From: Marchantia polymorpha subsp. ruderalis
Taxonomy: Eukaryota > Streptophyta > Marchantiopsida > Marchantiales > Marchantiaceae
Direction of reading: 5' to 3'
NCBI GenBank assembly: GCA_037833965.1
Contig: AP031352.1
Span: forward strand, 3,018,501 to 3,082,500
DNA: 64,000 bases
Shown: positions 13,701 to 55,615 of the stretch, one piece after another
Numbering within the stretch: the stretch's first letter is position 1
Layout: every line of letters begins with the position of its first letter
Program-made: the position numbers and the translations under genes
The notes under the pieces: generated by a model
Told to the model about the DNA's origin: nothing
The model's database searches: none
What the model saw: the letters and a program-made list of their open reading frames with translations, nothing else

Positions 13701-13826
13701 AGGGAGTTAGTGCGCGGCAGTCCGCCGCGCAGGAGACGTAGTACAGGTTCCGCGGAGTGTAGTGTAGCGTGGTTCCGTGCAGGCGTGTAGCGTAGTGCAG
13801 TGTAGTGCTAGTTAGGACTTAGAAGG

Positions 13827-13835
13827 TATAAAATA
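13827..13835 (+). promoter_or_regulatory. TATA box of solo LTR 1
   Basis: TATAAAATA about 37 bp after the ORF stop, followed by the conserved CCAGGC-GTTTT-GCCTGG hairpin. It marks the U3/R side of the LTR, so the ORF lies in U3. Confidence 0.7.
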
Positions 13836-25177: not shown

Positions 25178-26117
25178 TTACTGGTGATCTTCGTTTCCCG
25201 AAACTGCTTCCTCCACCTCTTCATACTCTATCCCCTCCATATTGTTGAACGGTCGTCGCTGCATGGGCCGTCCTCCTTGTTGTGTCGGCCGAACTTGACA
25301 AAACTTGGCTATGTGACCCATTCGTCCACATGCATAGCATTGGCGATTGTCACGAACTCCAGCTCCTCCTCGAACCATTCCGTTATTTGCATAACCTTCT
25401 TGCAAATTTGGAACTCCTGGTCGTCTAATCTCACCTCCAAATCTTGGTGGTGGTCCTCTTGTTGGTGCAAAACCTTCTCTACGTCGAAGGTTTCCCAACT
25501 CCATCGGTGTTGGACCAGATGGATCTCTAAAATTGCTCACTGGCTCACCGTGTGTGACACCAAAAGCACCTGAAATTCGTTGAGCAATTGCGATTGCTTC
25601 ATTCACAGTAGATGGATTGCTTACCATCACCTCCTTTCGAATTCGATCTTTCAAGCCTCGTTTGAACACGTCCAAGGCTTCAGCTCCACTCATATCCATG
25701 ATAGATACTTGAAGATCACGAAATTCTTCAATGTACTCATGAATACCTCCTTTCTGCTTCAGATCCCACAACTTCATTCTTGCAGTTTGAAGAGAATCCA
25801 CCGCTTGAAAATTTTGCAGAAGTACTTCCTGCATTCCACTCCACGAAATGGTAGCACCTCGTTCTGAAAGCATTCTCTCCCATGTTGTGTACCATGTGAG
25901 AGCCTTATCCGTAAGATAAGATCTCATGAACATTCCTGCAATATAATCAGAAACATGAAAATGGGATAAATGAATATTCATCCTCATAATCCATCCCTCT
26001 AACACTCCCATTGCTATACTCCCTTTGTAAGCTTCCACCTTACAGGATTTTCCCATTCGAAGCAAAAGATTTGCTTGATCTTCAATCTCTTGAAGACGTC
26101 TCCTATTTGCCTCTGCT
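25178..26117 (-). pseudogene. gag: Chromovirus gag, 3' part, cut by the Athila-like insertion
   Basis: The larger part of the Gag gene. It has the retrotransposon Gag core (YIAGMFMRSYL, ALTWYTTWERML, MKLWDLKQ, EYIEEFRDLQ) and one CX2CX4HX4C zinc knuckle (CYACGRMGHIAKFC), the nucleic-acid-binding part of the capsid protein. The frame continues upstream of the ATG at 26065 without a stop to the insertion point at 26117, and continues in frame at 42700 once the insertion and one CTGCT are removed. It ends at 25178. Confidence 0.9.
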
Positions 26118-27364
26118 TGTGGTACCCCACTTTTGGCAATTTTGAGGAAATTAAAACATTTTTGGAAAACTGTACCCTGGCAGCATTGTAAATGGCCTTC
26201 GGTACATCAAAACAGAGTGAATCCGGAAGATCGCGGGGATTCTCGAGGGATCTTGTAGAATCTGGGATTTGGGGTGCAGCAGTAAGGGCAGGCACCACCC
26301 TCCCTGCGAGCTCTGCAGTTAGGATCTCTACGGCGCAAGGCGCAAAACCCGCCTTCGGAGGTTGCGTCCGCGGCTGTAGGGAAACCCTCCCTAATTAGGT
26401 CAACCCTCGGGCGCCTTGACCAAGTTAGGATCCCGTTGGAAAGAGCTCGACGCACTGATTCCAACGAGCCCAAGAACGTTTGGAACGGACGAGGACTTAG
26501 GGAGTTATCGCTACTGGAAGAAACGGAGGCGGTCGCCTATGGCGGAAGGAGTTCGCCACCGGCGCGAATTCCGCCTACGCGGAAGGGGGAATCAAGTTTT
26601 GTCCTATGCGCGGACGAAGGCGTTCGCCTGTGCACAGGCGAAGTAGGGTTAGGGAAGGCGCGAAGTCCGCCTACGCACAGGCGTTCGCCTGTGCACAGGC
26701 ACTTCGGCGTCGGCGGGAAATCCGCCTTGGGCCCTAGAAATGCGCCTTGTGAGGTAGAAAGTGTACGGCGCCTTCCGCGCCAGCGCAGCGCCGCGTACGT
26801 CGGAAGAGCCGCCAGAGTAATCCAATCGGTACGGACCATGCGGACGGCACGGGTGGGTGCGCTCTTGGACGGACGGAGTTGCGGCGGCGGAAGCGCCGAC
26901 GGAGAGACAAGGAACGGACAGGCTGGACGGAGACGGCTGACCACGGTCAACGCCTTCCGCGCCAGCGCAGCGCCGCGGACGGAATTTGCCTGCGCACAGG
27001 CGAACGCCTGTGCACAGGAGGATGTTCAAGTTCCGCGCCGGCGGAGAATCCGCCGAGGCCCCTGCCTGCGCACAGGCAGGAGTTGAATTTTTGTCCGACA
27101 TGCGGACACACGCGTCAAGGCAGAAGGAGATTGGCCGAGGGGCGGTACGAACAAGTGTACCGCGCAAGGCGGAAAACTCGCCTTCGGCGCTACGCCCCCA
27201 TGTCCGCAGGGTGACACGCTCGCGGAGTTCAAATCCGCCAATTCGAGCGTGAGAGTTTAATCGACGACGGCGGAGCGTGAAGCCGCGCGTGAGAGCGAAG
27301 ACCGTTCCAGCGTACAGCCGGCGCGGCCATCAAGTGAGACGTTCTTCACGACCAAGAGCCGACC

Positions 27365-30300
27365 ATGACCTTCGACCGGGCGGCGGAGAACGTCCCATTC
27401 TTGAATTCGCGATTCCAATCTCTTGTGCGCGCTGCGCGCATCCATCTGCTGGCTGCGGAACATTCTCGACGTCGTCACACAGGAGATTTCTTGTTGATTG
27501 AGGGAGAAGTGAGTGCGCGTGATTTGGAATTGAGAGCGATTAGAGTTTGCCGAGAGAGAAAGAAGCGCGGGCAGTGCGGAAGTAGAATGAGCGGGCGAGC
27601 GAACCCCAGGAACGCGATGACGAGACCGAGCAGATTGCGGATGGTGCCACTTCGCCTACCGCAGAACGGGCTGCGCGCTTTTGAGGAGCGCTTAATAGCA
27701 AGAAAGCTCGATTTCTTGCTATGGGGATGGAATTACATCTGCGCGAATATGGTGCGCGAGTGGCTAGAGCCACAGGGACCACCCTCGCGCGGATTGCGTC
27801 CGCATGTTGACCGGTGGACAGTCCAAGATTGGGCGCAGGCGTTGGGAAGATGTGCTGGCATGCCAGGGCATCTCCTTTTCGACAGTGAGAGCATCAAGGT
27901 GACCAAGCAAGAAGAGGCGCAATTCGTGGAGCTGTTCAAGACCGGGAGGTCTACCAAGAATGGGTACAGGACCCGTGATTACAAGGATCGATTTCGCCGG
28001 ACTTTGTCCGCGGCGCTGATGCAATTACTGCAGCCGCACCGCGCCTGCTACATCACATTGTGGCAGGTCTCTTTTGTGGAGTGCGTCATCGAGGGAACTC
28101 CAATTCACTGGGCGAGCATCCTGCACAGGGTGATGCGACAGCACGCGTTTGAGGAGAAGGGGGGAACTCTAAACCATCTTTCTCCTTTCCTCATCAATTT
28201 TTATCGACAGCGGAATTGTTTGACAGCGGCAGAGCTTGAACATTTTCCGCCATTGTCCATCGACCATCCCGGGAAGTATGTGCGGGAGAACGAGGTCGAT
28301 ACTGATGCAGAGGAGTCACCGACTTCTACCCCATCAAGACGGAGAGACGAAGGGAGACACACCCCTGCAGCGCGAGTGCCGCGGAAGCGGCGATGGAGGG
28401 AAGAGTCTGAAGAGGAGCAGCATCAAGAACCCTCTGCTCCCATTCGACCGCGGCCGCTGTGCGAGCCATACAGCCGGCCGAAGCAGAAGGCACGCAGACT
28501 GGTGTTACCAGCTGACAGTGCAGACACGGCGACGATTGCGACGGAGATAGGAAGTGCGTCGCCAGAGAGGCGAGAGGAAGCGCGGACGACCGCAGGAGCA
28601 ACGGGCCACGCTGCAACCTCGTCGGGAGAGAGGCCGCCTACGGGCCAAGGGCCTCCGGAGTTACCACGTGCGATGCGGACAGATGTTCCGTTTGCGCACA
28701 GGCGAACCTCCGCGGACGGACGAGCCTCCGCGGACCGGCGAACACAAGTGGACGTGGATCTACGCTTACGCGTGGGAAGGAGCAGTCCGCCTGTGCACAG
28801 GCGCTCACCTGTGCACAGGTCGCCTGTGCACAGGACACCTCCACACGTGCCGCCTGTGCACAGGCAAGAATCACCCCCGTTCCAACGTAGGAAGGGGAAG
28901 GAGCCGGCGGAAGAACCGCCTACGAGACACCGGCCCTCGGGGCCAGACCCACCGGCGCACCACGCGCCGCAATTTGCGCCTTCGGCGCCAGGGCCTTCGA
29001 GCCGAGGGGATACGAGCAGAGAGCGTGCGGAGGCCGCACCATCGGCGGGAAGTCCGCCGATAGATGCGCCTTCGGCGGTAGGGCCTATAGGCCAAGGAAC
29101 ATCGGGCGTGCGGCCCCCGGCCATGTCGCCTTCGGCGATAGATGTCCGCGGCGCTACGCCTGCGGCGGACAAGGCGCCGGCAAATGCGCCTGCGCACGGG
29201 CCGGGCACAGCCCCCACGGACCGATCAAGGGAGCAGCAGACGGAGGAGCGGAGTGACTGTCCGCGGGATGAAATCTCGATGCGCGATGCGCAATCCAACC
29301 CCGCGCAGCCACCCTCCGCTCAATCGCCTTCGGCGGCGGACGACGGCGACAGAGAGAACGCGGTAGGCAATCAACAAGCGAGCGACGGGGATGCCGCTCG
29401 GGTACATTCGCCTTCCGCCTTAGACATTTTGGCGACGAGCAGCGAGGCTGCAGCCGTGCCTTCGCAGGCAGCACACGTCGACGACGTGCAGCCCCACTCG
29501 GGGCAGTCGCCGACGCAATCAATGGCGACTGAAATTCTCCACTCGGATGATGACGACGGAGGCTCCACGGAAGAAATGTCAGGAGCAGAAGACACCGAGG
29601 AGGAAGAGGAGGAAATTGTTGGAGCGCCGGCGGCGGCGCTCTCTGAGCAGGTGATTCCGTTGCTGCGGTACTTGGATCGCAAGGTCGATAAATACGCCGA
29701 CCCACTCCAGCCGGGATCTTACATCGAGTTAGTGCGCAGGCGGACTCGCACTAAAGTCCACACCAGCAAGCTATTAGCTAGAGTGGACCAGGAGTTGAGG
29801 GACTTGAAGGAGAAGCATGAGTGCTTGTGGGGACAGTACAAGCTTAATCAGAAGTTCTACAAGCACACCGAGAAGATGAAGGATGAAAAACTGGGCGAGC
29901 TCACCAAGGAGCAGGTGAAGGTCAAGGAAGCACTCAACTCTGAGCAGGCCCAGAATCGGATTTTGTCAGAGGAGCTCGTGCGACAGACGAGGTTGTTGGA
30001 ACAATGTCAGCTCGCACGGCAGGCGGATGAAGAGTTAATCCGCAGGTTGCAGTCAGAGTGTGGCGAATTGAGAGCGCAACGTGCTGAAGCCGAATCGCAA
30101 TTAGTGATAATTGAAGAGGATCGCAGGAAGGAGGCGGATCGCACGAAGGTGGAGACGGCGAGGCGAGTCGCCCACTGTCTCAAGGGCTACGCCCACTGGG
30201 AAGTGAAGGCGCAGGAGAAACTCACACTGCGTGAGTTTGAGCTGCGCGCAGCCGGGTTGTTGTCAGGCGACAGTAGGAGTCGGCGGAAGGTAGCAAAGAA

Positions 30301-30502
30301 GCTCGAAGCCTTTCTGTCGAAGGCACAGGATACCATGTCCGCCCTCGAAGGGGAGGTGTCCGCGGCGTTGCAGCGTTTGGGACTGCGCAGTCGAGCGGAA
30401 GAGTGGCAGGGTAGGGAGTTAGTGCGCGGCAGTCGGCCGCGCAGGAGACGTAGTACAGGTTCCGCGGAGTGTAGTGTAGCGTGGTTCCGTGCAGGCGTGT
30501 AG
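27365..30502 (+). CDS. LTR-encoded protein (1,045 aa), copy in the 5' LTR
   Basis: Function unknown. The start is the ATG at 27365, in context gaccATGacc and conserved in every long copy. Residues about 1-290 form a globular domain (LDFLLWGWNYIC, RWTVQDWAQALG, ITLWQVSFVECVIEGTPIHW) that loosely recalls the putative plant transposon protein domain. Residues about 300-720 are Pro/Ser/Ala/Arg-rich with SPVHR repeats encoded by DNA palindromes and basic clusters (RKRRW, PKQKARR) that could be nuclear signals. About 725-755 is acidic (SDDDDGG, EEEEEE). About 758-1010 is a coiled coil rich in heptads and charged residues, followed by a basic tail. There is no protease, RT, integrase, zinc knuckle or membrane segment, so it is not a classical envelope protein. 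In this LTR it lies upstream of the TATA box, so it would need a promoter in 26118-27364. Confidence 0.85.
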   Translation: MTFDRAAENVPFLNSRFQSLVRAARIHLLAAEHSRRRHTGDFLLIEGEVSARDLELRAIRVCRERKKRGQCGSRMSGRANPRNAMTRPSRLRMVPLRLPQNGLRAFEERLIARKLDFLLWGWNYICANMVREWLEPQGPPSRGLRPHVDRWTVQDWAQALGRCAGMPGHLLFDSESIKVTKQEEAQFVELFKTGRSTKNGYRTRDYKDRFRRTLSAALMQLLQPHRACYITLWQVSFVECVIEGTPIHWASILHRVMRQHAFEEKGGTLNHLSPFLINFYRQRNCLTAAELEHFPPLSIDHPGKYVRENEVDTDAEESPTSTPSRRRDEGRHTPAARVPRKRRWREESEEEQHQEPSAPIRPRPLCEPYSRPKQKARRLVLPADSADTATIATEIGSASPERREEARTTAGATGHAATSSGERPPTGQGPPELPRAMRTDVPFAHRRTSADGRASADRRTQVDVDLRLRVGRSSPPVHRRSPVHRSPVHRTPPHVPPVHRQESPPFQRRKGKEPAEEPPTRHRPSGPDPPAHHAPQFAPSAPGPSSRGDTSRERAEAAPSAGSPPIDAPSAVGPIGQGTSGVRPPAMSPSAIDVRGATPAADKAPANAPAHGPGTAPTDRSREQQTEERSDCPRDEISMRDAQSNPAQPPSAQSPSAADDGDRENAVGNQQASDGDAARVHSPSALDILATSSEAAAVPSQAAHVDDVQPHSGQSPTQSMATEILHSDDDDGGSTEEMSGAEDTEEEEEEIVGAPAAALSEQVIPLLRYLDRKVDKYADPLQPGSYIELVRRRTRTKVHTSKLLARVDQELRDLKEKHECLWGQYKLNQKFYKHTEKMKDEKLGELTKEQVKVKEALNSEQAQNRILSEELVRQTRLLEQCQLARQADEELIRRLQSECGELRAQRAEAESQLVIIEEDRRKEADRTKVETARRVAHCLKGYAHWEVKAQEKLTLREFELRAAGLLSGDSRSRRKVAKKLEAFLSKAQDTMSALEGEVSAALQRLGLRSRAEEWQGRELVRGSRPRRRRSTGSAECSVAWFRAGV

Positions 30503-30538
30503 CGTAGTGCAGTGTAGTGTTAGGTAGGACTTAGAAGG

Positions 30539-30547
30539 TATAAAATA
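30539..30547 (+). promoter_or_regulatory. LTR TATA box (5' LTR)
   Basis: TATAAAATA, 37 bp after the ORF stop. Conserved at the same place in six other LTRs of this family in the window (7578, 13827, 41726, and as TATAAAGTA at 46224, 55048, 57099). This is the probable promoter of the genomic RNA, with transcription starting near 30570. Confidence 0.75.
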
Positions 30548-30550
30548 GTT

Positions 30551-30567
30551 CCAGGCGTTTTGCCTGG
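30551..30567 (+). promoter_or_regulatory. Conserved hairpin next to the TATA box
   Basis: CCAGGC-GTTTT-GCCTGG, a perfect 6-bp stem. In the diverged LTR at 45243-48622 the arm pair reads CAAGGC / GCCTTG, a compensatory C-G to A-T change that keeps the pairing. Confidence 0.55.
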
Positions 30568-31530
30568 GGTTCTTTCCCATCAGAAGTGCAGATCAGGAAC
30601 CCATTTCCTTTGCGTGTTTGTGTCCTTGAGTTCTGTCACCACGCACGAGGAGTTACAACTTAGCGTTCCGCATTTTGTAGCTGAAGGCCTGCGGCCAAAT
30701 GTTCAGAGCTAGTACATTGGTTAGAGACTTGAGTAGTTCGGATCTGCACCTGCGGGTGACTGCCGATGCTCAGAGCCAGTGACTAGTTAGATACTTGAAC
30801 AGTTTCGCCCCTACACCTTCGAGTGTTTCTTTCTGATTGTACTCCTTGGGATTTTTCCCCTGAATGCCAAAGTGAAGTTTTGTTACTTCGTGTAAGCCTT
30901 GGTTGTAAATTCAGGTTACGCTGCAGCCGGTGCCTTGAGGGTAACCCCTGTAGTATTTCTGGGAATGACAAGTGCCTGAGAATTCAAACTCTTCAATAGA
31001 CTGTTGTTGTGTTACTGGAATGTTTCACAGTGAGTCCTTCAGTGCGGACCTGTGTTCTCTGCGCGTTTTGTGAGTTGAGAGTGTTGTTCACCGCGTAGGA
31101 GTGACTTCGATCCGAAGTAGGCAGTCCAAACCGGGTTTCCTACACTAGCAGCAAGCTAGTGGAAGTGTTGTAAAAGCCGGAGTTGGAAGTCACTGCCCGC
31201 AGCTTTGCCGAGTGTGCTCGCGAGAGACTTTCCCCCCTGAAATCTTGAAGTAGAGGTCCTAACGGATCTCTGGGTTGTGTTTCTGTAGTTTCAGGTGTGT
31301 GTGTGTGTGTTACGCTGCACTGTGCGACCTCCGAGTGCGCTCCGAGTGGACACTTGCAGTATTTCTGGGAGTGACAGTTGCCTGAGAATTCAAACTCCTC
31401 AATAGTCTGTTAAAACGTGACACTTTGTACCCTGTGTGTTCCTCTGTCCCTGTGGGTTCGACCTTTCTACCACTATATTGCAGTTTTAGCCTTTAGTGGG
31501 TTATTACATAAGAAGCCGACAACTTCTTTT

Positions 31531-31548
31531 TGGCGCCGCTGCCGGGGA
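31531..31548 (+). other. Primer binding site, Asp tRNA
   Basis: TGGCGCCGCTGCCGGGGA matches the complement of the plant Asp-tRNA 3' end (as I recall it) at 17 of 18 positions. It starts 22 nt after the LTR end, a rather long gap. Confidence 0.85.
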
Positions 31549-31594
31549 CAGTTGCGTCAACACCGGGGTTTTTACGAGCAGCCATGCTCGGTGA

Positions 31595-34426
31595 ATGTCG
31601 ACTGGGGCTAGCGGGAGCAACCTAAGTGCTAGGGCTGTCCGCAAGTTCCGACGAGATTCAGAGAAGGCCGTGGAAGAGACACGGCGTCAAAACAAGAAAA
31701 CACCAAAAAGAGTACCTAAGCCTAGTTCGGCCGACATCCTTGGGGAACCTACCCCCGGCGACTCGGAACCAAACTTGGTGCTTACAGTTCTACTAGATAT
31801 TCCTTGCACGGACCCGCCTCGTGAAGTAGAACCGACCGCCCGAGAACCGTCGACAGACACACCGATGGCGGACGGACAAGCCAATGTGCGGCTACCTCAG
31901 CCGATTACTAAACATTCCTACCCGAAGTACAAAGGGAGTGGGGATGACGACGATGCAGATTCATACATCAAGTTGTTCGAGTCGGTGTCTATTGCCAATC
32001 GCGAGATCGCAGACGACGACCGACTAAGGATCTTTCCAAGCCTTCTGCGGAAGAAAGCGAGGAGTTGGTACAATCACGAGAGCATCGATCCGACTGGGTT
32101 GACAACATGGGCCCAGCTGAAGGAGAAGTTCCTTCGCCGCTTTCGCGAGCTCGGCTACGACAGCCGGGTTTTGACAAAGTTACGTAATTTGCAGCGGGAG
32201 AAGAAGGAGAGTCTGCGTGACTACACTGAGAGATTTCTGGACCTCCTCGACAGAATACCGAAAACAGGACCAGGGTCCCCTTTCTCGGTACAACAAGCTG
32301 TGGATTGGTACGTGACCGGTTTAACTCGGGAGATGGAGACTTTTTGCCGACGCAGCAAGTGCGACACTATTGAGGACGTGATTGCATCGGCAGAAGCCTT
32401 CGAAACTTCCACTCTCAACCGAAGAGGGAGAGAGAGACGGGAGTCGAAGGAGCGAAAACCGAAGGGAGGGCGAAGACGACGTAGAGGTACAACTCCGTCA
32501 TCGGAGGAATCGTCTTCGGACGAGAACCGTTCTTCATCCGAAGAAGAGGAAACCTCATCGTCGGAGGAGGAGAAGAAGAGGAAGAAGCATGGGTCAGCGA
32601 AGAAAAAGGGCATCCGACGAGTGACTACGGACAGAGCGCCGGGAGATATAGCTTCGAAGATGGAGACCCTTGTGAAGGACTTCGCCGATCTCAAGGTTCA
32701 AGTGGTAGGCGGGCATGATCGCCGAAAATCACCCGGGAGAGTGCGAGCGAACTTATGGTGTACTACGTGCGGGGCGGTGGGACATGCAAACACCGAGTGC
32801 CTTACCACCCGTCCGTCATATCCAGTCAACGCAGTAGAGTGGGCACAACCGTACTATGGAGAACACCCTCAGTACTATGGAGAGGCTAGCGAAGAGACAG
32901 CCTACGCCGTCCAGTCGGTGCCTACCCCTCCTGCAGTTTCAGCAATGCAAGTCCCACGATATATTCCGGTGGATCGGGCCACTACGGTACCTGTGAGGCG
33001 GAGAGCACCTCCAGGGACGTTTGACCCACCGCCACCGCGAGCTTGTTATAATTGCGGGGAAGTTGGGCACTTCTCACCGCAGTGTCCCCATCCAAAGAGG
33101 CGAAACGATTATGCTCCGACATGTAGTAATTGCAAGAAGATCGGGCATACTGCGCCAGAGTGTGATCAGCCACCAGTCCCTCGGCCAGCGGTACGATTTG
33201 TGAACACTCCTGCCAAGGAGGACGTGCAAGTTAACCAGGTCGAAGTAGGTTCAGACGGGGATGGCGAAGACGAAGAATGGCCGGCTGAAGAGGTTATGTG
33301 CGCACGGGTCGAAACTCGTAGTTCCAAGAAATCGAAGGAGCAAGAGCGTGACACTCGCAAGCACGAACGGAGAACCGACGACCGGACGGGAAAAGGAAAG
33401 GAGAAGACATCCAGCAAGTCCGACTCGCGACCTGCTCGGAAGTCTTCGGCTACGCGGGAGGCACCAGCAGTGCGCCCCCAGACAGCAGTCGAGGACGAGC
33501 CAGTGCGCCTACTGAAACGGGACTATGCTCCGGATATCCGCAACGAGGTAGCCAACCTGTTGAAGGAAGCGATCCGCACTCACAAGGACCCACCACGGCC
33601 AGACTTGACATCCTCCCTTGGGGCGAAGTTAGCAGCCACCGTGGAACCTCGCAGAGCGTCGCCGACCCCGGCGCCCCAACGCGCCCACTATGACTTGGTC
33701 GAAGACCTCGGGAGTCGAAAAGTGAACATCACGTTCAAGCAGCTCTTGGAGGACAATAAGACGTATCGGAGAATGTTGATGCTTTCGCTACGGCATCCGC
33801 GGAAGCCGCGCGCATCCACATCCTCTCAAGTATATCAAGTGGAGAGCGAAGACCAAGGGCCACCCGAGATCGATGTGGAGATAGCAGGATGTTGTGTACG
33901 CAGAGTGCCAATCGACTCTGGATCAGGAGTCAACATAATGACGGAGGATACAGCGAGAGCCTTGGGGTTCAGTCAATACGAACCCTCGAAGCGTGTGTTG
34001 AGATTAGCGGATCAGACGCGGAGAATGCCTGCAGGTATGCTGCGCAATGTCAAGACAACCATCGGGGGTGCGGACTTTCGGTTGACGTATATCATCCTTC
34101 AACCGATGATGAAGCAGGGCTATGACGTTCTGCTCGGGCGACCATGGCTATATGGTGCACAAGTCAGATGTGATTGGCGAAGACATCGCCTTAAGTTTCC
34201 TCATCCTTCGGAACCGACCAAAACCATTACGGTGCCCTGGAATAGGGTCAGGCACGAAGGAGAGACCCCATCGACAAGTGCAGGTTACACATCGGGCGAG
34301 GACAGTGAGTCGACCGCGCGATCGGATTCCAGTGGTACCGAATCCGATTACTTCGTGGGATTCGTTGCCTGCTGTTCGGTGGGAGAAGAAGAAGAGCCGG
34401 AAGCTATTCAGCCGGAAGACGAATAG
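31595..34426 (+). CDS. gag: Gag-protease polyprotein
   Basis: 943 codons ending in UAG. Residues about 100-240 form the Gag core (KHSYPKYKGSGDDDD, SWYNHES, TTWAQLKEKFLRRFRE, LRDYTERFLDL). A long Ser/Glu/Lys-rich linker follows. Three CX2CX4HX4C zinc knuckles begin at C389 (CTTCGAVGHANTEC), C484 (CYNCGEVGHFSPQC) and C510 (CSNCKKIGHTAPEC), more than the one or two usual in plant gypsy Gag. The aspartic protease has its active site at D774 in IDSGSG (DSG rather than DTG) and ends near LLGRPWLY. The ATG at 31595 is preceded by an ATG at 31584 that opens a 13-codon overlapping frame (stop 31623-31625), which may lower initiation at gag. Confidence 0.93.
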   Translation: MSTGASGSNLSARAVRKFRRDSEKAVEETRRQNKKTPKRVPKPSSADILGEPTPGDSEPNLVLTVLLDIPCTDPPREVEPTAREPSTDTPMADGQANVRLPQPITKHSYPKYKGSGDDDDADSYIKLFESVSIANREIADDDRLRIFPSLLRKKARSWYNHESIDPTGLTTWAQLKEKFLRRFRELGYDSRVLTKLRNLQREKKESLRDYTERFLDLLDRIPKTGPGSPFSVQQAVDWYVTGLTREMETFCRRSKCDTIEDVIASAEAFETSTLNRRGRERRESKERKPKGGRRRRRGTTPSSEESSSDENRSSSEEEETSSSEEEKKRKKHGSAKKKGIRRVTTDRAPGDIASKMETLVKDFADLKVQVVGGHDRRKSPGRVRANLWCTTCGAVGHANTECLTTRPSYPVNAVEWAQPYYGEHPQYYGEASEETAYAVQSVPTPPAVSAMQVPRYIPVDRATTVPVRRRAPPGTFDPPPPRACYNCGEVGHFSPQCPHPKRRNDYAPTCSNCKKIGHTAPECDQPPVPRPAVRFVNTPAKEDVQVNQVEVGSDGDGEDEEWPAEEVMCARVETRSSKKSKEQERDTRKHERRTDDRTGKGKEKTSSKSDSRPARKSSATREAPAVRPQTAVEDEPVRLLKRDYAPDIRNEVANLLKEAIRTHKDPPRPDLTSSLGAKLAATVEPRRASPTPAPQRAHYDLVEDLGSRKVNITFKQLLEDNKTYRRMLMLSLRHPRKPRASTSSQVYQVESEDQGPPEIDVEIAGCCVRRVPIDSGSGVNIMTEDTARALGFSQYEPSKRVLRLADQTRRMPAGMLRNVKTTIGGADFRLTYIILQPMMKQGYDVLLGRPWLYGAQVRCDWRRHRLKFPHPSEPTKTITVPWNRVRHEGETPSTSAGYTSGEDSESTARSDSSGTESDYFVGFVACCSVGEEEEPEAIQPEDE

Positions 34427-34432
34427 CAATTA
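34424..34432 (+). promoter_or_regulatory. UAG CAA UUA stop-codon readthrough site
   Basis: The Gag-protease stop and the two following codons match exactly the TMV-type readthrough consensus UAG CAR YYA. Pol continues in the same frame with no further stop to 37265, and no ATG occurs in that frame before 34622. Confidence 0.85.
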
Positions 34433-34435
34433 ACT

Positions 34436-37267
34436 GTGGGACTGGGAAGGAGTGAGACGAGTCACACTGAGGGCATTGTCGACCCTAGTGACTGTCACGA
34501 AGTACAACTCAGTCCCGGCAAGTGCTTGAAGGTATCAAGCGCAGTGAGAGGAGACGAGCTAAGGAAAGTACAGGCATTCCTTAGCCATTATGTCGACGTC
34601 TTCGCCTGGAAGATCGAAGACATGAAGGGGATACCTGCACGGTATGGGGAACACCGTATCGATTTACTGGACGACTCAGTACCCATACGACAGCGCCAGT
34701 ATCGCCTCAACCCAAAGTACTCCTTGCTAGTGAAAGAGGAGATAGATAAGTACTTGAGCGCTGGTATTATTTACCCTGTGCTCAGCAGCGAGTGGGTGTC
34801 GCCGATTGTTATCGTACCCAAGAAGTTGACGGGTAAGATACGAGTGTGTCAGGATTTCCGGAAGTTGAATGCAGCAACACGCAAGGATCATCACCCGTTA
34901 CCATTCACGGATGCCATTCTAGACCATGTCGCAGGACATGAATGTTATAGCTTCCTGGATGGGTTCTCAGGTTACAATCAGGTGTCTATCCGTGAACAGG
35001 ACAAGGATAAAACTACGTTCACAACCGACTGGGGAACTTACGCATACCACAAGATGCCCTTCGGACTGTGCAACGCGCCTGCCACCTTTCAACGGATGAT
35101 GACCAACATCTTCCAGGAACAACTGAGGAAGTTCCTGGAAATATTCATAGATGACTTCTGTGTCTTTGGGAAGCGGTCTGAACACCTAAGTCACTTGAAG
35201 CAGACCTTCGATAAATGTAGAGAGAGCAGTTTATCACTGCATCCCGAGAAGTGCTTTTTCTTTATGACTAGTGGGATCTTGTTGGGTCATCGGGTCTCGG
35301 CAGACGGCATTGCGGTGGACATCGAGAAGGTCAAGGTTATACTCGAGCTTGAGCCACCCACGAATCTAAGAGAGCTGCGAGCATTCCTGGGTCATGTGGG
35401 CTACTACCGAAGATTCATACACATGTATGCAATACTGGCGGCGGACCTGACCAAGTTGTTGAAGAAGGACGAGCCTTATGCTTGGGGTGCGAACCAGCAG
35501 TCAGCATTTGAGGCTCTGAAAGCAAAACTCACGACTGCTCCCGTACTAAGGAGTCCAGACTGGAATCGACCATTCCATGTTTACGTTGACACATCGGCAT
35601 TCGCCATCGGTGTAGTACTGAGTCAAAAGGATGACAACAAAAAGGACTACCCGATCTACTTCGCGAGCCGACAGCTGTCTCTAGCAGAGCGGAAGTACAC
35701 CACGACGGAGAGAGAAGCGTTGGGGATGGTGTACTCCTGTAAAAAGTTCCGTCACTACCTAATCTGCTACGAGTTTGTGTTCCATGTGGACCACTATGCA
35801 TTGCAACACCTAGTCAAGAAAGCCGACCTAACCGGTCGGATCGCCAGGTGGGTGTTGTTACTACAAGAGTTCACCTACACAGTCCAGATCAGGAAAGGGG
35901 TGCACCACGAAAATGCGGATTACTTGTCCCGATTATGGACACAGCCGACAGAGGAGGAATTGGTGGACGATTTTCCAGATGAAGAGTTATTTCAGTTGTC
36001 GGCAGGACATGAGTCCCGCTATGCCGACCTGTATCGATATCTGCTAACCCTCCAGTGTCCTGAAGGCATGGATTTGGAACAGCGAACTGTCTTTATTCAT
36101 AAGGCGGGCCCGTACCAACTCCAGCAGGGGGTTTTGTTCAAGAAGATGGCGGATGAGCGCTTATGCAGATGCCTGGAGGAATCAGAAGTACCAAGAATAG
36201 TGAGTGCGATGCATACAGAGGAGGCGGGTGGACACTATGCCACCAGGAACACGGTCACAAAAATCCTAAATGCGGGGTATTGGTGGCCGACCATGTTTAA
36301 GGATGTTCTCGATTACATCCGCAAGTGCGACAGTTGCCAGAGGACGGGGAGACCGACGCCTACAACACGCTGGCCCCTGACTCCCATCATGCCTCTAGCA
36401 CCTTTCGAAAAGTGGGGTATTGACTTTGTAGGGCCGATACAACCGGTGACTAGAAGTACACGAAGGCGCTACATTCTGGTAGCAACGGACTACGCCACCA
36501 AAATGGTAGAGGCCAGAGCCACCAGAAGGGATGATGCTGCCACAGTCGCAGCATTCTTGTTTGAGTCGATCATCACACGCTACGGATGTCCCTTAGAGCT
36601 AGTCAGCGACCGGGGCACGCATTTTCTGAATCAGATCATCGAAGATCTGACACGGTATTTCCACATCAAGCACCGGAAGACTACTCCATACAATCCCAAG
36701 GCAAATGGACTGACGGAGAAGTCCAATGGTCTGCTGTGTAAAATACTACTCAAGGTCACGGTGAATCACGCTCACGACTGGGATACGAAGCTAGCAGCCG
36801 CTCTATGGGCGTACCGCACAGCTGAGAAGATCACGACCAAACAGACACCATACTTTCTGGTGTATGGGCAACACCCGATCCTCCCGATCGAATTTGAAGT
36901 ACCCACCCAACGAACGTTGGATTTGCAGAGGATGGGCGCAGAGGAGAGTCAGCTCTACAGGTTACAGGAGGTCACGCTGCTGGATGAGAGGAGAAGAGAC
37001 GCCGAAGATCGCACCAGGAAAATCCAGCTCCGCCGAAAGGAGAGATACGATAAAAAGATCAAACCGGTACTCCTGCAGGCGGGTGATTTGGCATTGCTCT
37101 ACGACAGCAGGCATGCCAGATTCCCAGGCAAACTGCACCTAAGGTGGATGGGTCCTTACAGGGTTGTCGAAGTTTTCCCGAATGGATCCATCCAACTTGC
37201 GGACCTGGCCGGCGATTTGTTAGGCACCCGAGTAAACGGGTGGCGGTTGAAGAAATACCACATGTGA
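34436..37267 (+). CDS. pol: Pol polyprotein: RT, RNase H, integrase (readthrough product)
   Basis: In frame with Gag-protease after the UAG at 34424-34426; the codon at 34436 is GTG, not a start, so it is probably made only as a Gag-Pol fusion. Residues from 34436: RT with WVSPIVIVPKK, FLDGFSGYNQ, MPFGLCNAPATF and active site I-D-D (D239-D240); RNase H (FHVYVDTSAFAIG, TTEREALGMVYSC, HENADYLSRL); integrase zinc region (H and H near GGHYAT, then CDSC) and the catalytic triad D663, D725, E761 with exact D-35-E spacing. All key residues are present. There is no chromodomain. The stop at 37265-37267 is 24 bp before the polypurine tract. Confidence 0.95.
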   Translation: MGLGRSETSHTEGIVDPSDCHEVQLSPGKCLKVSSAVRGDELRKVQAFLSHYVDVFAWKIEDMKGIPARYGEHRIDLLDDSVPIRQRQYRLNPKYSLLVKEEIDKYLSAGIIYPVLSSEWVSPIVIVPKKLTGKIRVCQDFRKLNAATRKDHHPLPFTDAILDHVAGHECYSFLDGFSGYNQVSIREQDKDKTTFTTDWGTYAYHKMPFGLCNAPATFQRMMTNIFQEQLRKFLEIFIDDFCVFGKRSEHLSHLKQTFDKCRESSLSLHPEKCFFFMTSGILLGHRVSADGIAVDIEKVKVILELEPPTNLRELRAFLGHVGYYRRFIHMYAILAADLTKLLKKDEPYAWGANQQSAFEALKAKLTTAPVLRSPDWNRPFHVYVDTSAFAIGVVLSQKDDNKKDYPIYFASRQLSLAERKYTTTEREALGMVYSCKKFRHYLICYEFVFHVDHYALQHLVKKADLTGRIARWVLLLQEFTYTVQIRKGVHHENADYLSRLWTQPTEEELVDDFPDEELFQLSAGHESRYADLYRYLLTLQCPEGMDLEQRTVFIHKAGPYQLQQGVLFKKMADERLCRCLEESEVPRIVSAMHTEEAGGHYATRNTVTKILNAGYWWPTMFKDVLDYIRKCDSCQRTGRPTPTTRWPLTPIMPLAPFEKWGIDFVGPIQPVTRSTRRRYILVATDYATKMVEARATRRDDAATVAAFLFESIITRYGCPLELVSDRGTHFLNQIIEDLTRYFHIKHRKTTPYNPKANGLTEKSNGLLCKILLKVTVNHAHDWDTKLAAALWAYRTAEKITTKQTPYFLVYGQHPILPIEFEVPTQRTLDLQRMGAEESQLYRLQEVTLLDERRRDAEDRTRKIQLRRKERYDKKIKPVLLQAGDLALLYDSRHARFPGKLHLRWMGPYRVVEVFPNGSIQLADLAGDLLGTRVNGWRLKKYHM

Positions 37268-37290
37268 GTGTTCGCGTGGGCGCTCACAAT

Positions 37291-37304
37291 TGAGGAGGGG
37301 GGCA
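37291..37304 (+). other. Polypurine tract of the Athila-like element
   Basis: TGAGGAGGGGGGCA immediately before the 3' LTR. The 36 bp at 37269-37304 are identical to those before the 3' LTR of the non-autonomous relative (55580-55615). Confidence 0.88.
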
Positions 37305-38551
37305 TGTGGTACCCCACTTTTGGCAATTTTGAGGAAATTAAAACATTTTTGGAAAACTGTACCCTGGCAGCATTGTAAATGGCCTTCGGTACATCAAAAC
37401 AGAGTGAATCCGGAAGATCGCGGGGATTCTCGAGGGATCTTGTAGAATCTGGGATTTGGGGTGCAGCAGTAAGGGCAGGCACCACCCTCCCTGCGAGCTC
37501 TGCAGTTAGGATCTCTACGGCGCAAGGCGCAAAACCCGCCTTCGGAGGTTGCGTCCGCGGCTGTAGGGAAACCCTCCCTAATTAGGTCAACCCTCGGGCG
37601 CCTTGACCAAGTTAGGATCCCGTTGGAAAGAGCTCGACGCACTGATTCCAACGAGCCCAAGAACGTTTGGAACGGACGAGGACTTAGGGAGTTATCGCTA
37701 CTGGAAGAAACGGAGGCGGTCGCCTATGGCGGAAGGAGTTCGCCACCGGCGCGAATTCCGCCTACGCGGAAGGGGGAATCAAGTTTTGTCCTATGCGCGG
37801 ACGAAGGCGTTCGCCTGTGCACAGGCGAAGTAGGGTTAGGGAAGGCGCGAAGTCCGCCTACGCACAGGCGTTCGCCTGTGCACAGGCACTTCGGCGTCGG
37901 CGGGAAATCCGCCTTGGGCCCTAGAAATGCGCCTTGTGAGGTAGAAAGTGTACGGCGCCTTCCGCGCCAGCGCAGCGCCGCGTACGTCGGAAGAGCCGCC
38001 AGAGTAATCCAATCGGTACGGACCATGCGGACGGCACGGGTGGGTGCGCTCTTGGACGGACGGAGTTGCGGCGGCGGAAGCGCCGACGGAGAGACAAGGA
38101 ACGGACAGGCTGGACGGAGACGGCTGACCACGGTCAACGCCTTCCGCGCCAGCGCAGCGCCGCGGACGGAATTTGCCTGCGCACAGGCGAACGCCTGTGC
38201 ACAGGAGGATGTTCAAGTTCCGCGCCGGCGGAGAATCCGCCGAGGCCCCTGCCTGCGCACAGGCAGGAGTTGAATTTTTGTCCGACATGCGGACACACGC
38301 GTCAAGGCAGAAGGAGATTGGCCGAGGGGCGGTACGAACAAGTGTACCGCGCAAGGCGGAAAACTCGCCTTCGGCGCTACGCCCCCATGTCCGCAGGGTG
38401 ACACGCTCGCGGAGTTCAAATCCGCCAATTCGAGCGTGAGAGTTTAATCGACGACGGCGGAGCGTGAAGCCGCGCGTGAGAGCGAAGACCGTTCCAGCGT
38501 ACAGCCGGCGCGGCCATCAAGTGAGACGTTCTTCACGACCAAGAGCCGACC

Positions 38552-41500
38552 ATGACCTTCGACCGGGCGGCGGAGAACGTCCCATTCTTGAATTCGCGAT
38601 TCCAATCTCTTGTGCGCGCTGCGCGCATCCATCTGCTGGCTGCGGAACATTCTCGACGTCGTCACACAGGAGATTTCTTGTTGATTGAGGGAGAAGTGAG
38701 TGCGCGTGATTTGGAATTGAGAGCGATTAGAGTTTGCCGAGAGAGAAAGAAGCGCGGGCAGTGCGGAAGTAGAATGAGCGGGCGAGCGAACCCCAGGAAC
38801 GCGATGACGAGACCGAGCAGATTGCGGATGGTGCCACTTCGCCTACCGCAGAACGGGCTGCGCGCTTTTGAGGAGCGCTTAATAGCAAGAAAGCTCGATT
38901 TCTTGCTATGGGGATGGAATTACATCTGCGCGAATATGGTGCGCGAGTGGCTAGAGCCACAGGGACCACCCTCGCGCGGATTGCGTCCGCATGTTGACCG
39001 GTGGACAGTCCAAGATTGGGCGCAGGCGTTGGGAAGATGTGCTGGCATGCCAGGGCATCTCCTTTTCGACAGTGAGAGCATCAAGGTGACCAAGCAAGAA
39101 GAGGCGCAATTCGTGGAGCTGTTCAAGACCGGGAGGTCTACCAAGAATGGGTACAGGACCCGTGATTACAAGGATCGATTTCGCCGGACTTTGTCCGCGG
39201 CGCTGATGCAATTACTGCAGCCGCACCGCGCCTGCTACATCACATTGTGGCAGGTCTCTTTTGTGGAGTGCGTCATCGAGGGAACTCCAATTCACTGGGC
39301 GAGCATCCTGCACAGGGTGATGCGACAGCACGCGTTTGAGGAGAAGGGGGGAACTCTAAACCATCTTTCTCCTTTCCTCATCAATTTTTATCGACAGCGG
39401 AATTGTTTGACAGCGGCAGAGCTTGAACATTTTCCGCCATTGTCCATCGACCATCCCGGGAAGTATGTGCGGGAGAACGAGGTCGATACTGATGCAGAGG
39501 AGTCACCGACTTCTACCCCATCAAGACGGAGAGACGAAGGGAGACACACCCCTGCAGCGCGAGTGCCGCGGAAGCGGCGATGGAGGGAAGAGTCTGAAGA
39601 GGAGCAGCATCAAGAACCCTCTGCTCCCATTCGACCGCGGCCGCTGTGCGAGCCATACAGCCGGCCGAAGCAGAAGGCACGCAGACTGGTGTTACCAGCT
39701 GACAGTGCAGACACGGCGACGATTGCGACGGAGATAGGAAGTGCGTCGCCAGAGAGGCGAGAGGAAGCGCGGACGACCGCAGGAGCAACGGGCCACGCTG
39801 CAACCTCGTCGGGAGAGAGGCCGCCTACGGGCCAAGGGCCTCCGGAGTTACCACGTGCGATGCGGACAGATGTTCCGTTTGCGCACAGGCGAACCTCCGC
39901 GGACGGACGAGCCTCCGCGGACCGGCGAACACAAGTGGACGTGGATCTACGCTTACGCGTGGGAAGGAGCAGTCCGCCTGTGCACAGGCGCTCACCTGTG
40001 CACAGGTCGCCTGTGCACAGGACACCTCCACACGTGCCGCCTGTGCACAGGCAAGAATCACCCCCGTTCCAACGTAGGAAGGGGAAGGAGCCGGCGGAAG
40101 AACCGCCTACGAGACACCGGCCCTCGGGGCCAGACCCACCGGCGCACCACGCGCCGCAATTTGCGCCTTCGGCGCCAGGGCCTTCGAGCCGAGGGGATAC
40201 GAGCAGAGAGCGTGCGGAGGCCGCACCATCGGCGGGAAGTCCGCCGATAGATGCGCCTTCGGCGGTAGGGCCTATAGGCCAAGGAACATCGGGCGTGCGG
40301 CCCCCGGCCATGTCGCCTTCGGCGATAGATGTCCGCGGCGCTACGCCTGCGGCGGACAAGGCGCCGGCAAATGCGCCTGCGCACGGGCCGGGCACAGCCC
40401 CCACGGACCGATCAAGGGAGCAGCAGACGGAGGAGCGGAGTGACTGTCCGCGGGATGAAATCTCGATGCGCGATGCGCAATCCAACCCCGCGCAGCCACC
40501 CTCCGCTCAATCGCCTTCGGCGGCGGACGACGGCGACAGAGAGAACGCGGTAGGCAATCAACAAGCGAGCGACGGGGATGCCGCTCGGGTACATTCGCCT
40601 TCCGCCTTAGACATTTTGGCGACGAGCAGCGAGGCTGCAGCCGTGCCTTCGCAGGCAGCACACGTCGACGACGTGCAGCCCCACTCGGGGCAGTCGCCGA
40701 CGCAATCAATGGCGACTGAAATTCTCCACTCGGATGATGACGACGGAGGCTCCACGGAAGAAATGTCAGGAGCAGAAGACACCGAGGAGGAAGAGGAGGA
40801 AATTGTTGGAGCGCCGGCGGCGGCGCTCTCTGAGCAGGTGATTCCGTTGCTGCGGTACTTGGATCGCAAGGTCGATAAATACGCCGACCCACTCCAGCCG
40901 GGATCTTACATCGAGTTAGTGCGCAGGCGGACTCGCACTAAAGTCCACACCAGCAAGCTATTAGCTAGAGTGGACCAGGAGTTGAGGGACTTGAAGGAGA
41001 AGCATGAGTGCTTGTGGGGACAGTACAAGCTTAATCAGAAGTTCTACAAGCACACCGAGAAGATGAAGGATGAAAAACTGGGCGAGCTCACCAAGGAGCA
41101 GGTGAAGGTCAAGGAAGCACTCAACTCTGAGCAGGCCCAGAATCGGATTTTGTCAGAGGAGCTCGTGCGACAGACGAGGTTGTTGGAACAATGTCAGCTC
41201 GCACGGCAGGCGGATGAAGAGTTAATCCGCAGGTTGCAGTCAGAGTGTGGCGAATTGAGAGCGCAACGTGCTGAAGCCGAATCGCAATTAGTGATAATTG
41301 AAGAGGATCGCAGGAAGGAGGCGGATCGCACGAAGGTGGAGACGGCGAGGCGAGTCGCCCACTGTCTCAAGGGCTACGCCCACTGGGAAGTGAAGGCGCA
41401 GGAGAAACTCACACTGCGTGAGTTTGAGCTGCGCGCAGCCGGGTTGTTGTCAGGCGACAGTAGGAGTCGGCGGAAGGTAGCAAAGAAGCTCGAAGCCTTT

Positions 41501-41689
41501 CTGTCGAAGGCACAGGATACCATGTCCGCCCTCGAAGGGGAGGTGTCCGCGGCGTTGCAGCGTTTGGGACTGCGCAGTCGAGCGGAAGAGTGGCAGGGTA
41601 GGGAGTTAGTGCGCGGCAGTCGGCCGCGCAGGAGACGTAGTACAGGTTCCGCGGAGTGTAGTGTAGCGTGGTTCCGTGCAGGCGTGTAG
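38552..41689 (+). CDS. LTR-encoded protein (1,045 aa), copy in the 3' LTR
   Basis: The translation is identical to 27365-30502. In this position the gene lies after pol and before the TATA box, that is in the U3 segment present at the 3' end of genomic RNA. This is the place where some Athila elements carry a third ORF and where MMTV carries sag. Expression could come from a spliced or subgenomic RNA or from a promoter in 37305-38551; no TATA box was seen there. Confidence 0.87.
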   Translation: MTFDRAAENVPFLNSRFQSLVRAARIHLLAAEHSRRRHTGDFLLIEGEVSARDLELRAIRVCRERKKRGQCGSRMSGRANPRNAMTRPSRLRMVPLRLPQNGLRAFEERLIARKLDFLLWGWNYICANMVREWLEPQGPPSRGLRPHVDRWTVQDWAQALGRCAGMPGHLLFDSESIKVTKQEEAQFVELFKTGRSTKNGYRTRDYKDRFRRTLSAALMQLLQPHRACYITLWQVSFVECVIEGTPIHWASILHRVMRQHAFEEKGGTLNHLSPFLINFYRQRNCLTAAELEHFPPLSIDHPGKYVRENEVDTDAEESPTSTPSRRRDEGRHTPAARVPRKRRWREESEEEQHQEPSAPIRPRPLCEPYSRPKQKARRLVLPADSADTATIATEIGSASPERREEARTTAGATGHAATSSGERPPTGQGPPELPRAMRTDVPFAHRRTSADGRASADRRTQVDVDLRLRVGRSSPPVHRRSPVHRSPVHRTPPHVPPVHRQESPPFQRRKGKEPAEEPPTRHRPSGPDPPAHHAPQFAPSAPGPSSRGDTSRERAEAAPSAGSPPIDAPSAVGPIGQGTSGVRPPAMSPSAIDVRGATPAADKAPANAPAHGPGTAPTDRSREQQTEERSDCPRDEISMRDAQSNPAQPPSAQSPSAADDGDRENAVGNQQASDGDAARVHSPSALDILATSSEAAAVPSQAAHVDDVQPHSGQSPTQSMATEILHSDDDDGGSTEEMSGAEDTEEEEEEIVGAPAAALSEQVIPLLRYLDRKVDKYADPLQPGSYIELVRRRTRTKVHTSKLLARVDQELRDLKEKHECLWGQYKLNQKFYKHTEKMKDEKLGELTKEQVKVKEALNSEQAQNRILSEELVRQTRLLEQCQLARQADEELIRRLQSECGELRAQRAEAESQLVIIEEDRRKEADRTKVETARRVAHCLKGYAHWEVKAQEKLTLREFELRAAGLLSGDSRSRRKVAKKLEAFLSKAQDTMSALEGEVSAALQRLGLRSRAEEWQGRELVRGSRPRRRRSTGSAECSVAWFRAGV

Positions 41690-41725
41690 CGTAGTGCAGT
41701 GTAGTGTTAGGTAGGACTTAGAAGG

Positions 41726-41734
41726 TATAAAATA
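41726..41734 (+). promoter_or_regulatory. LTR TATA box (3' LTR)
   Basis: TATAAAATA at the same offset (4,421 bp from the LTR start) as in the 5' LTR. Confidence 0.7.
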
Positions 41735-42695
41735 GTTCCAGGCGTTTTGCCTGGGGTTCTTTCCCATCAGAAGTGCAGATCAGGAACCCATTTCCTTTGC
41801 GTGTTTGTGTCCTTGAGTTCTGTCACCACGCACGAGGAGTTACAACTTAGCGTTCCGCATTTTGTAGCTGAAGGCCTGCGGCCAAATGTTCAGAGCTAGT
41901 ACATTGGTTAGAGACTTGAGTAGTTCGGATCTGCACCTGCGGGTGACTGCCGATGCTCAGAGCCAGTGACTAGTTAGATACTTGAACAGTTTCGCCCCTA
42001 CACCTTCGAGTGTTTCTTTCTGATTGTACTCCTTGGGATTTTTCCCCTGAATGCCAAAGTGAAGTTTTGTTACTTCGTGTAAGCCTTGGTTGTAAATTCA
42101 GGTTACGCTGCAGCCGGTGCCTTGAGGGTAACCCCTGTAGTATTTCTGGGAATGACAAGTGCCTGAGAATTCAAACTCTTCAATAGACTGTTGTTGTGTT
42201 ACTGGAATGTTTCACAGTGAGTCCTTCAGTGCGGACCTGTGTTCTCTGCGCGTTTTGTGAGTTGAGAGTGTTGTTCACCGCGTAGGAGTGACTTCGATCC
42301 GAAGTAGGCAGTCCAAACCGGGTTTCCTACACTAGCAGCAAGCTAGTGGAAGTGTTGTAAAAGCCGGAGTTGGAAGTCACTGCCCGCAGCTTTGCCGAGT
42401 GTGCTCGCGAGAGACTTTCCCCCCTGAAATCTTGAAGTAGAGGTCCTAACGGATCTCTGGGTTGTGTTTCTGTAGTTTCAGGTGTGTGTGTGTGTGTTAC
42501 GCTGCACTGTGCGACCTCCGAGTGCGCTCCGAGTGGACACTTGCAGTATTTCTGGGAGTGACAGTTGCCTGAGAATTCAAACTCCTCAATAGTCTGTTAA
42601 AACGTGACACTTTGTACCCTGTGTGTTCCTCTGTCCCTGTGGGTTCGACCTTTCTACCACTATATTGCAGTTTTAGCCTTTAGTGGGTTATTACA

Positions 42696-42924
42696 CTGCT
42701 GCATCAATAGGAGTTGGTTCTGGCTGAACTTGGGAAGCTTGAACTTGAGGTTCAACTTCCATCTCTCCAACTCTCTCTCTCTCTACTTTCTCACTCTCTA
42801 ATGCAAAGATTTTATCTTCCATGGCTTGCTGCTTGGTATGCTCATCTACTATCGCTTTTCTCAACTCCTTCATCTCCGCCATGATTGCATTGAGAACCTC
42901 ACCCATATCAATTGATGTTCCCAT
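42696..42924 (-). pseudogene. gag: Chromovirus gag, 5' part
   Basis: Start ATG at 42924 (MGTSIDMGEVLNAIMAEMKE); a short Glu-rich, coiled-coil-like N terminus ends at the Athila-like insertion. The frame joins that at 26117 when the insertion and one CTGCT are removed. Confidence 0.85.
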
Positions 42925-48200: not shown

Positions 48201-48622
48201 AAATGCGCTCCCTCTTCGTATCTTCCGATAATCATAACTCCTTGATTCCTCATCCGTTCCAAGCGTTCTTGGGCTCGTTAGAACGAGCGCGTCAAGTTCT
48301 TTCCAACAGAACCCTAACCAAGTCAAGGCGTTGTGAATTGAATAAGTTCTGAGGGATTTCCCTAGCGCCAAAGGTGGCCAACGCCGAAGGCGGATTATGC
48401 GCCTTGCGCCGAAGGAGATTCCCTTCAGAATTGATCGTTCAGGCCGGGGCGCCTGCTCTGGACATTGCGCCCAACTTTTGGATTCTACGAGATCATACGA
48501 GACCCGTGATTATCCATCTTCACTCTATTTAAATGTACCGATCACCATTTACAAGGCTGCTGCGGTATTGTTTTGCAAAAATGTTTTAAATTCCGCACAA
48601 AAACACAAAGTGGGTTACCATA
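45243..48622 (-). mobile_element. Old solo LTR, diverged relative of the Athila-like family
   Basis: On the minus strand it starts TATGGTAACCC (TG decayed to TA) at 48622 and ends GGGTTATTACA at 45243, 3,380 bp. The flanks GAGTC (45238-45242) and GAGTA (48623-48627) are a near-perfect duplication. It retains the R/U5 region, TATA box (46224-46232, minus) and hairpin (46204-46220), and the C-terminal part of the LTR-encoded protein; the N-terminal part is missing or unreadable. 47540-48200 is packed with GCCGAAGGCG-type palindromes. It is inserted in the copia LTR-like segment. Confidence 0.85.
46370..47526 (-). pseudogene. LTR-encoded protein, diverged C-terminal part
   Basis: 47197-47526 encodes the acidic stretch and the segment before it (SPTALDILAGSSEAAA, SEDDEEGESGSDEEEEQ). 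46370-47212, in another frame, encodes 280 residues of the coiled coil and the conserved end (CEQVVPLLRYLDRKV to RLGLRSRAED). In a 71-codon stretch compared by hand with 13231-13443, 33 codons differ and 20 of these differences are synonymous. The frame break near 47200 and the absent N terminus suggest a pseudogene now, or a gene split into two proteins. Confidence 0.75.
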
Positions 48623-55311: not shown

Positions 55312-55324
55312 GGAAAGAAAAAAA

Positions 55325-55579: not shown

Positions 55580-55615
55580 TGTTCGCGTGGGCGCTCACAA
55601 TTGAGGAGGGGGGCA

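Follow-up and report, generated by a model that had tools for sequence, protein, structure and literature searches.

A long reading frame under purifying selection inside the long terminal repeats of a Marchantia Ty3/gypsy retrotransposon

Introduction

Long terminal repeats (LTRs) are usually viewed as the non-coding regulatory ends of retrotransposons. A 64,000-nucleotide stretch of Marchantia polymorpha subsp. ruderalis DNA (assembly GCA_037833965.1, contig AP031352.1, positions 3,018,501 to 3,082,500; here the window) raises the question of whether a plant LTR can itself hold a gene: in the Ty3/gypsy element at 26118-42695, each LTR wholly contains an open frame of 1,045 codons (27365-30502 in the 5' LTR and 38552-41689 in the 3' LTR). 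An earlier note, made from the letters alone, had read this frame as a gene in the U3 part of the LTR, upstream of a conserved TATA box and left behind whenever a solo LTR forms; it had further proposed that the third ORF of an Athila-like element was absorbed into the LTR. This interpretation is supported in part. Here we report a plant LTR with a long gene kept by selection, and find the arrangement to be real and unusual: the protein encoded by the LTR is conserved, at least two families have it, and solo LTRs hold open copies.

The LTR frame is under purifying selection

The boundaries of the element place the frame inside the repeats. The two LTRs, of 5,391 bp each, run from TG to CA with zero differences between them and lie between 5-bp target site duplications (TSDs), and their ends were independently confirmed by solo LTRs elsewhere in the genome that carry 5-bp duplications of their own. 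The claims that both LTRs hold the same long frame, and that it falls within the LTR boundaries, were thereby borne out.

26113..26117, no strand: left TSD CTGCT, from flank comparison
26118..31508, plus strand: 5' LTR, 5,391 bp, from self-BLAST, ends and TSD
27617..30502, plus strand: LTR gene, 5' LTR copy, ~961 codons, the selected part of frame 27365-30502
37305..42695, plus strand: 3' LTR, 5,391 bp, from self-BLAST, ends and TSD
38804..41689, plus strand: LTR gene, 3' LTR copy, part of frame 38552-41689
42696..42700, no strand: right TSD CTGCT, from flank comparison

Among 2,000 LTRs simulated from a first-order Markov model of the window LTR, the longest open frame reached 594 codons, against the 1,045 observed, and the other five frames hold 13-32 stops each over 27617-30499. 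Selection was measured in 17 copies from the same genome, comprising the window copy, the copy in a nested solo LTR and 15 of 20 fetched LTR loci (L019, L020, L022, L023 and L029, with broken or truncated frames, were dropped). The fetched loci were 20 of the 38 places outside the window among 40 scored out of 2,225 first-look candidates; the sample is biased to query-like copies, and several of the 17 share one array or are the two LTRs of one element. The median pairwise ratio of nonsynonymous to synonymous substitution rates (dN/dS) was 0.196, based on those pairs whose dS exceeds 0.005 (126 of 136); the same alignment gave 1.6 and 1.9 in the other sense frames and 1.3, 0.21 and 2.3 in the antisense frames. 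For comparison, dN/dS was 0.257 for gag-pro and 0.03 for pol, each against one other copy whose gag-pro has a stop. Moreover, in 11 copies both private (0.207) and shared (0.156) changes proved constrained. We conclude that the LTR frame is under purifying selection. This selection is comparable to that on gag-pro and constrains private and shared changes alike, which suggests that the protein is of importance to lineages still on the move. The antisense strand also has a 291-codon frame (28423-29298, minus strand), which looks like a by-product and may be the frame with the ratio of 0.21.

The signature of coding begins some way into the open frame. In 15 LTR copies, variable sites fall on the three codon positions as 50/33/122 from 27617 onward and as 2/6/4 in 27365-27616, the latter a small test on only 12 sites. 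Numbered along the 1,045-codon frame and pooled over 12 copies (66 pairs), pN/pS, the counterpart of dN/dS for proportions of differing sites, was 1.4 for residues 1-75, 0.06-0.07 at 75-330, 0.28-0.34 at 330-745 and 0.15-0.20 at the C terminus, and an ATG aligned with 27617 is present in three other diverged LTR copies (L039, L051 and L052). Since the selection pattern begins at ~27617 and the first 84 codons show no sign of coding constraint, the gene probably starts near the methionine at 27617 and encodes a protein of ~961 residues. The earlier description of a 1,045-codon gene is therefore right about the open frame and too long for the gene.

The N-terminal region of the protein is conserved and is followed by a Pro/Ser/Ala-rich linker bearing basic clusters, then by an acidic run and a heptad-rich C-terminal part; the largest 19-residue hydropathy mean of the protein, 1.14, is low for a membrane helix. 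Across 70 family members scanned against Pfam no family recurred consistently; among the matches listed (25 of the 46 families with any match) the best had an E of 0.0013, and the hits were single or double and chance-like. A sequence search of the PDB with a 12-row profile found nothing up to E 1. Transposase_32 (PF20167), which we had suspected in the N-terminal region from its motif pattern, gained no support from the Pfam scans and was set aside; a Transposase_32 search of the genome gave 0 matches, its controls likewise finding nothing.

Homologues in other LTR families

Similarity at the protein level shows diverged homologues of the gene in other LTR families. In a second family (L040-L050) the gene has 53-59% N-terminal identity, and the solo LTR L052 of this family (flanks AAGAG) carries an open frame of 865 codons whose end lies ~45 bp upstream of a TATA box. 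Copies of the second family, picked mainly for open frames, were compared with L041 in seven pairs: six gave dN/dS of 0.03-0.21, and the remaining one, with L042, gave 0.64 on a dS of only 0.014. Between groups, dS is ~1.2-1.8 for nearly all pairs (0.75 for L039/L051) and dN 0.13-0.37, a dN/dS of ~0.2 with dS near saturation. A third group (P0009), mostly decayed, has 41% identity over 153 residues.

A profile search of proteins, which scored the 8,000 candidates sharing most words and leaves a wider distribution possible, yielded 144 homologues; 108 of the 120 listed are named Marchantia polymorpha, and all named homologues among the matches listed are from Marchantia. One of these named proteins has a 98% match over residues 81-710 to a single locus of the genome, with 80% for the runner-up, in keeping with M. 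polymorpha in the wide sense; an auxin response factor (ARF) tried for the same purpose matched ARFs and other B3 proteins of the PDB, none of them nearly identical. At least 108 hypothetical proteins of the public M. polymorpha annotation (AXG93_* and Mp_8g15400) match the profile of the LTR gene, which suggests that many 'hypothetical proteins' of this species are pieces of retrotransposon LTR genes. Such gene models may inflate the gene set.

Solo LTRs can stay coding

Genome-wide pattern searches allowing up to 2 mismatches counted 2,170 gene starts, 1,364 LTR-to-internal junctions and 6,338 LTR 3' ends; the 3' end patterns are short and may be common to related families, and the counts therefore give no strict ratio of solo to full elements. 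Six of the 20 fetched loci (L020, L021, L028, L031, L032 and L036) are solo LTRs with matching 5-bp flanks. The expectation that solo LTRs leave the gene behind holds with an open gene in five of these six; in L020 the gene is broken. A protein search of the genome, itself a selected top slice, found 41 of 44 scored places without a stop. Solo LTRs, usually counted as scars, can stay coding. The window holds further LTRs of the same or a related kind:

4056..14802, plus strand: solo LTR of the same family, split by a nested solo LTR; TSD GTCAC; gene in two pieces
6610..11986, minus strand: solo LTR of the same family; TSD GCGTT; open 1,038-codon frame at 7623-10739
45243..48622, minus strand: related LTR, ~81% over its 3' part; flanks GAGTC/GAGTA; 280-codon C-terminal gene remnant at 46370-47212
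53498..58020, plus strand: related solo LTR; TSD GTCTT; same ends and TATA box; no match to the gene; 15/30-bp tandem repeats

In the LTR at 53498-58020 the TATA box and the region following it are present twice. Elsewhere in the genome, head-to-tail arrays with a spacing of ~11.1-11.2 kb occur on contigs C4 (20.82-20.88 Mb), C7 (8.46-8.50 Mb), C2 (31.34-31.39 Mb) and C3 (20.84-20.88 Mb). Internal sequence lies on both sides of the fetched LTRs in the C4 and C7 arrays, and only the spacing was seen on C2 and C3; the pattern suggests unequal LTR recombination or concatemer insertion.

A conserved block and a TATA box flank the gene

Two conserved features border the gene within the LTR.

27218..27616, plus strand: conserved non-coding block, candidate promoter or 5' untranslated region (UTR), from its low variability in the alignment
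30539..30545, plus strand: TATA box of the presumed genomic-RNA promoter in the 5' LTR, with its counterpart at 41726 in the 3' LTR
30561..31508, plus strand: R-U5 of the 5' LTR, its start placed from the TATA position, with diversity data

In the 15 copies the upstream block varies at 19 of 399 sites, against 135 of 1,099 in 26118-27217 (Fisher p 8e-6); elsewhere, variable sites number 21 of 457 at the start of R/U5 and 26 of 200 in the middle of U5. One other LTR group retains similarity to part of the block (71% over ~160 bp), and blastn showed none of it in L052. From this pattern, the block could be the promoter and leader of the gene. The TATA box at 30539 lies 36 bp past the gene's stop codon and recurs in each of the five window LTRs compared, one of which lacks the gene. 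The first 1,247 bp of the LTR contain no TATA-like site. The proposal that the frame lies upstream of a conserved TATA box, and hence in U3, was accordingly upheld, with the promoter recognised by its TATA only.

A model for the gene-bearing LTR and its alternatives

We propose, with a probability of roughly 0.6, that the LTR is a gene-bearing unit that joins a second promoter, a protein of ~961 residues, the TATA box of the genomic RNA, supply of the protein in trans and a role serving the element. U3 would comprise, in order, ~1.1 kb of variable sequence, the 400-bp conserved block acting as second promoter and 5' UTR, the uninterrupted gene frame and the genomic-RNA TATA. The genomic RNA, presumed to start near 30570, would carry the gene once, downstream of pol, and reverse transcription would copy it into both LTRs; in retroelement replication a U3 gene is present once in the genomic RNA and twice in the DNA. 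The transcript of the gene itself would terminate in R/U5. Recombination between LTRs would delete gag-pol and spare the gene, and the resulting solo LTRs may act as a source of the protein in trans. Most likely the protein works for the element and not for infection, with a role, for example in anti-silencing or in nuclear handling of the nucleoprotein, that is a guess. That the LTR is a stand-alone cassette with its own promoter, gene and poly(A) site, from which solo LTRs supply an accessory protein in trans to mobile copies, we regard as a tentative idea with the odds against it. If true, LTR recombination would turn dying elements into dispersed coding solo LTRs in a division of labour with full elements. 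The gene-bearing LTR makes it testable whether solo LTRs act in trans on mobile relatives.

Several observations weigh against this model. Conservation of the upstream block could instead reflect packaging, a splice acceptor or another cis signal. Grouped by position, the 20 loci form 13 elements or arrays, of which 9 have the gene open and 4 broken, and the LTR at 53498-58020, which lacks the gene, indicates that some relatives do without it. Decay is frequent among diverged relatives, with stops in 31 of the first 32 rows, and in the wider listing of relatives only ~27 of 133 rows, by our count, are free of stops. The low antisense ratio of 0.21 lies outside the gene frame, in a frame with 13 stops, and arises because wobble positions are common to that frame and the gene. 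As to the role of the protein, the window copy matched no Pfam family (E up to 10), and residues 85-330, numbered along the 1,045-codon frame, gave all-helical and unusable structures in two AlphaFold models (mean pLDDT 37.8 and 51.8).

Of the competing explanations, the one that survives best, although we consider it unlikely, leaves the gene in U3 and has it expressed only through spliced genomic RNA, from the TATA of the 5' LTR to an acceptor just upstream of 38804, with solo LTRs silent. The gene would indeed lie downstream of pol on the genomic RNA, the TATA is conserved, and retroviruses produce env, nef and some sag messages in this way; for sag, transcripts that start from the U3/R junction in the 5' LTR have been described (PMC4667437). 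The conserved block could hold the acceptor, but at ~400 bp it exceeds what an acceptor needs, and by eye no acceptor motif was clearly common to the aligned copies.

It is considerably less probable that transcription of the genomic RNA begins within the first 1.2 kb of the LTR, which would make the gene an ORF0 (an open reading frame, ORF, of the 5' leader) and leave the TATA at 30539 with a minor role. Grass Retrosat2 offers a parallel in its long LTRs and its ORF0, but ORF0 is described there as lying upstream of the gag-pol ORF and not as part of the LTR (PMC3485330). In addition, the first 1,247 bp lack a TATA-like site, and the TATA at 30539 recurs together with its following sequence in related LTRs, one of them without the gene.

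Selection by the host, with the LTR gene domesticated and solo LTRs retained for its sake, seems highly improbable: M. polymorpha annotations account for 108 of the 120 homologues listed, including one entry of the chromosome-numbered annotation (Mp_8g15400), yet the roughly two thousand gene starts, the identical LTRs of a very recent insertion and the broken solo copy L020 fit selection on mobile lineages. Least likely of all is a functionless passenger, either a captured fragment or a GC-rich open frame, since the lack of a known domain, the confinement of named homologues among the matches listed to Marchantia and a G+C of 53-62% over the gene, which lowers stop frequency, are outweighed by the codon-position bias, a dN/dS of ~0.2 that is low in the second family too, constraint on private (0.207) and shared (0.156) changes alike, and simulated LTRs that reach at most 594 codons.

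Internal region and classification

The element is a complete Ty3/gypsy LTR retrotransposon, with an LTR pair, a TSD, a primer binding site (PBS)-like site, a polypurine tract, gag and the domain order protease, reverse transcriptase, RNase H, integrase.

31531..31548, plus strand: PBS-like site TGGCGCCGCTGCCGGGGA, 22 bp past the 5' LTR
31595..34426, plus strand: gag-pro ORF, 943 aa, with capsid, zinc knuckles and aspartic protease
34424..34432, plus strand: candidate leaky stop TAG CAATTA, in frame between gag-pro and pol, from sequence
34427..37267, plus strand: pol, with reverse transcriptase, RNase H and integrase, from Pfam
37292..37304, plus strand: polypurine tract, from sequence

The PBS of Athila/Tat elements is complementary to tRNA-Asp, and TGGCGCCGCTGCCGGGGA may be of this type; two genome pattern searches for a donor tRNA-Asp returned 11 sites, none of them a tRNA gene by ARAGORN, and then 0 sites. 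TAG CAATTA is the stop context of tobacco mosaic virus readthrough; pol continues open in the frame of gag-pro, and the single further copy inspected (L038) is identical; pol is probably made by stop-codon readthrough. From the pol stop (37267) to the 3' LTR (37305) there are 37 bp, and therefore no room for a conventional third ORF.

A Pfam scan of pol found no Chromo match after the integrase at E up to 10, the same type of scan giving one in the neighbouring ORF 21756-25175, and matched only the native RNase H stretch, with no additional archaeal-type RNase H (aRH) as in Tat. An env-like ORF between pol and the 3' LTR, as in some Athila members (PMC7264820), is absent, pol stopping at 37267 and the LTR beginning at 37305, and the LTR protein matched none of the known plant extra-ORF domains PMD, Transposase_28, Athila ORF-1 and Transposase_32 (E up to 10). 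Non-chromovirus Ty3/gypsy elements without aRH, and with a native RNase H that is not degraded, have been reported in both Marchantia genomes; the available passages of that report mention no LTR-borne gene (PMC10508981), and the window element resembles these by description, not by tree.

Comparison with known systems

By arrangement, and with no sequence relation claimed, the closest analogue is sag of mouse mammary tumour virus (MMTV), a U3 protein gene that is doubled by reverse transcription and has been recovered chiefly from solo LTRs (490 of 527 contigs), with a dN/dS of 0.289 and a described internal U3 promoter (PMC4667437). The window element has the defining layout of this type, coding sequence in the LTR upstream of the genomic promoter, the latter recognised by TATA only. 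MMTV, however, is an infectious animal retrovirus with the majority of sag in U3 (PMC4667437), whereas here a plant LTR of 5.4 kb encloses the entire gene of ~961 codons.

The additional and env-like ORFs (aORF/eORF) of Tat/Athila (OTA) elements belong to the same broad non-chromovirus Ty3/gypsy group and likewise encode an extra protein of unclear function beyond gag-pol. Reviews place them within the internal region, usually in the stretch from pol to the 3' LTR (PMC7264820; PMC6317226), where the window element has nothing. Retrosat2, RIRE3 and RIRE8 share long LTRs (~3 kb or more) and an extra ORF with it, but their ORF0 lies upstream of the gag-pol ORF, not in the LTR, and is given in the available passages as absent outside grasses (PMC3485330); Retrosat-2 is filed under the chromovirus Tekay (PMC6317226). 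In searches of the open-licence literature, including that on Marchantia elements, we recognised no plant precedent for an ORF inside an LTR, which does not imply its absence from print. Surveys of extra ORFs limited to the region between the LTRs would miss LTR genes.

Genomic surroundings

The element sits in or near the gag of a minus-strand chromovirus (21323-43958) with identical LTRs of ~420 bp, TSD ATCTC and ORFs at 21756-25175 and 25178-26065. As the LTRs of this host and those of the element itself are identical, the insertion is very recent. Rfam gave no match in the window. On contig C1, LTR matches repeat at offsets of ~0.35-0.41 Mb, which would fit about three copies of a large segment; at a guess, C1 may be the small sex chromosome.

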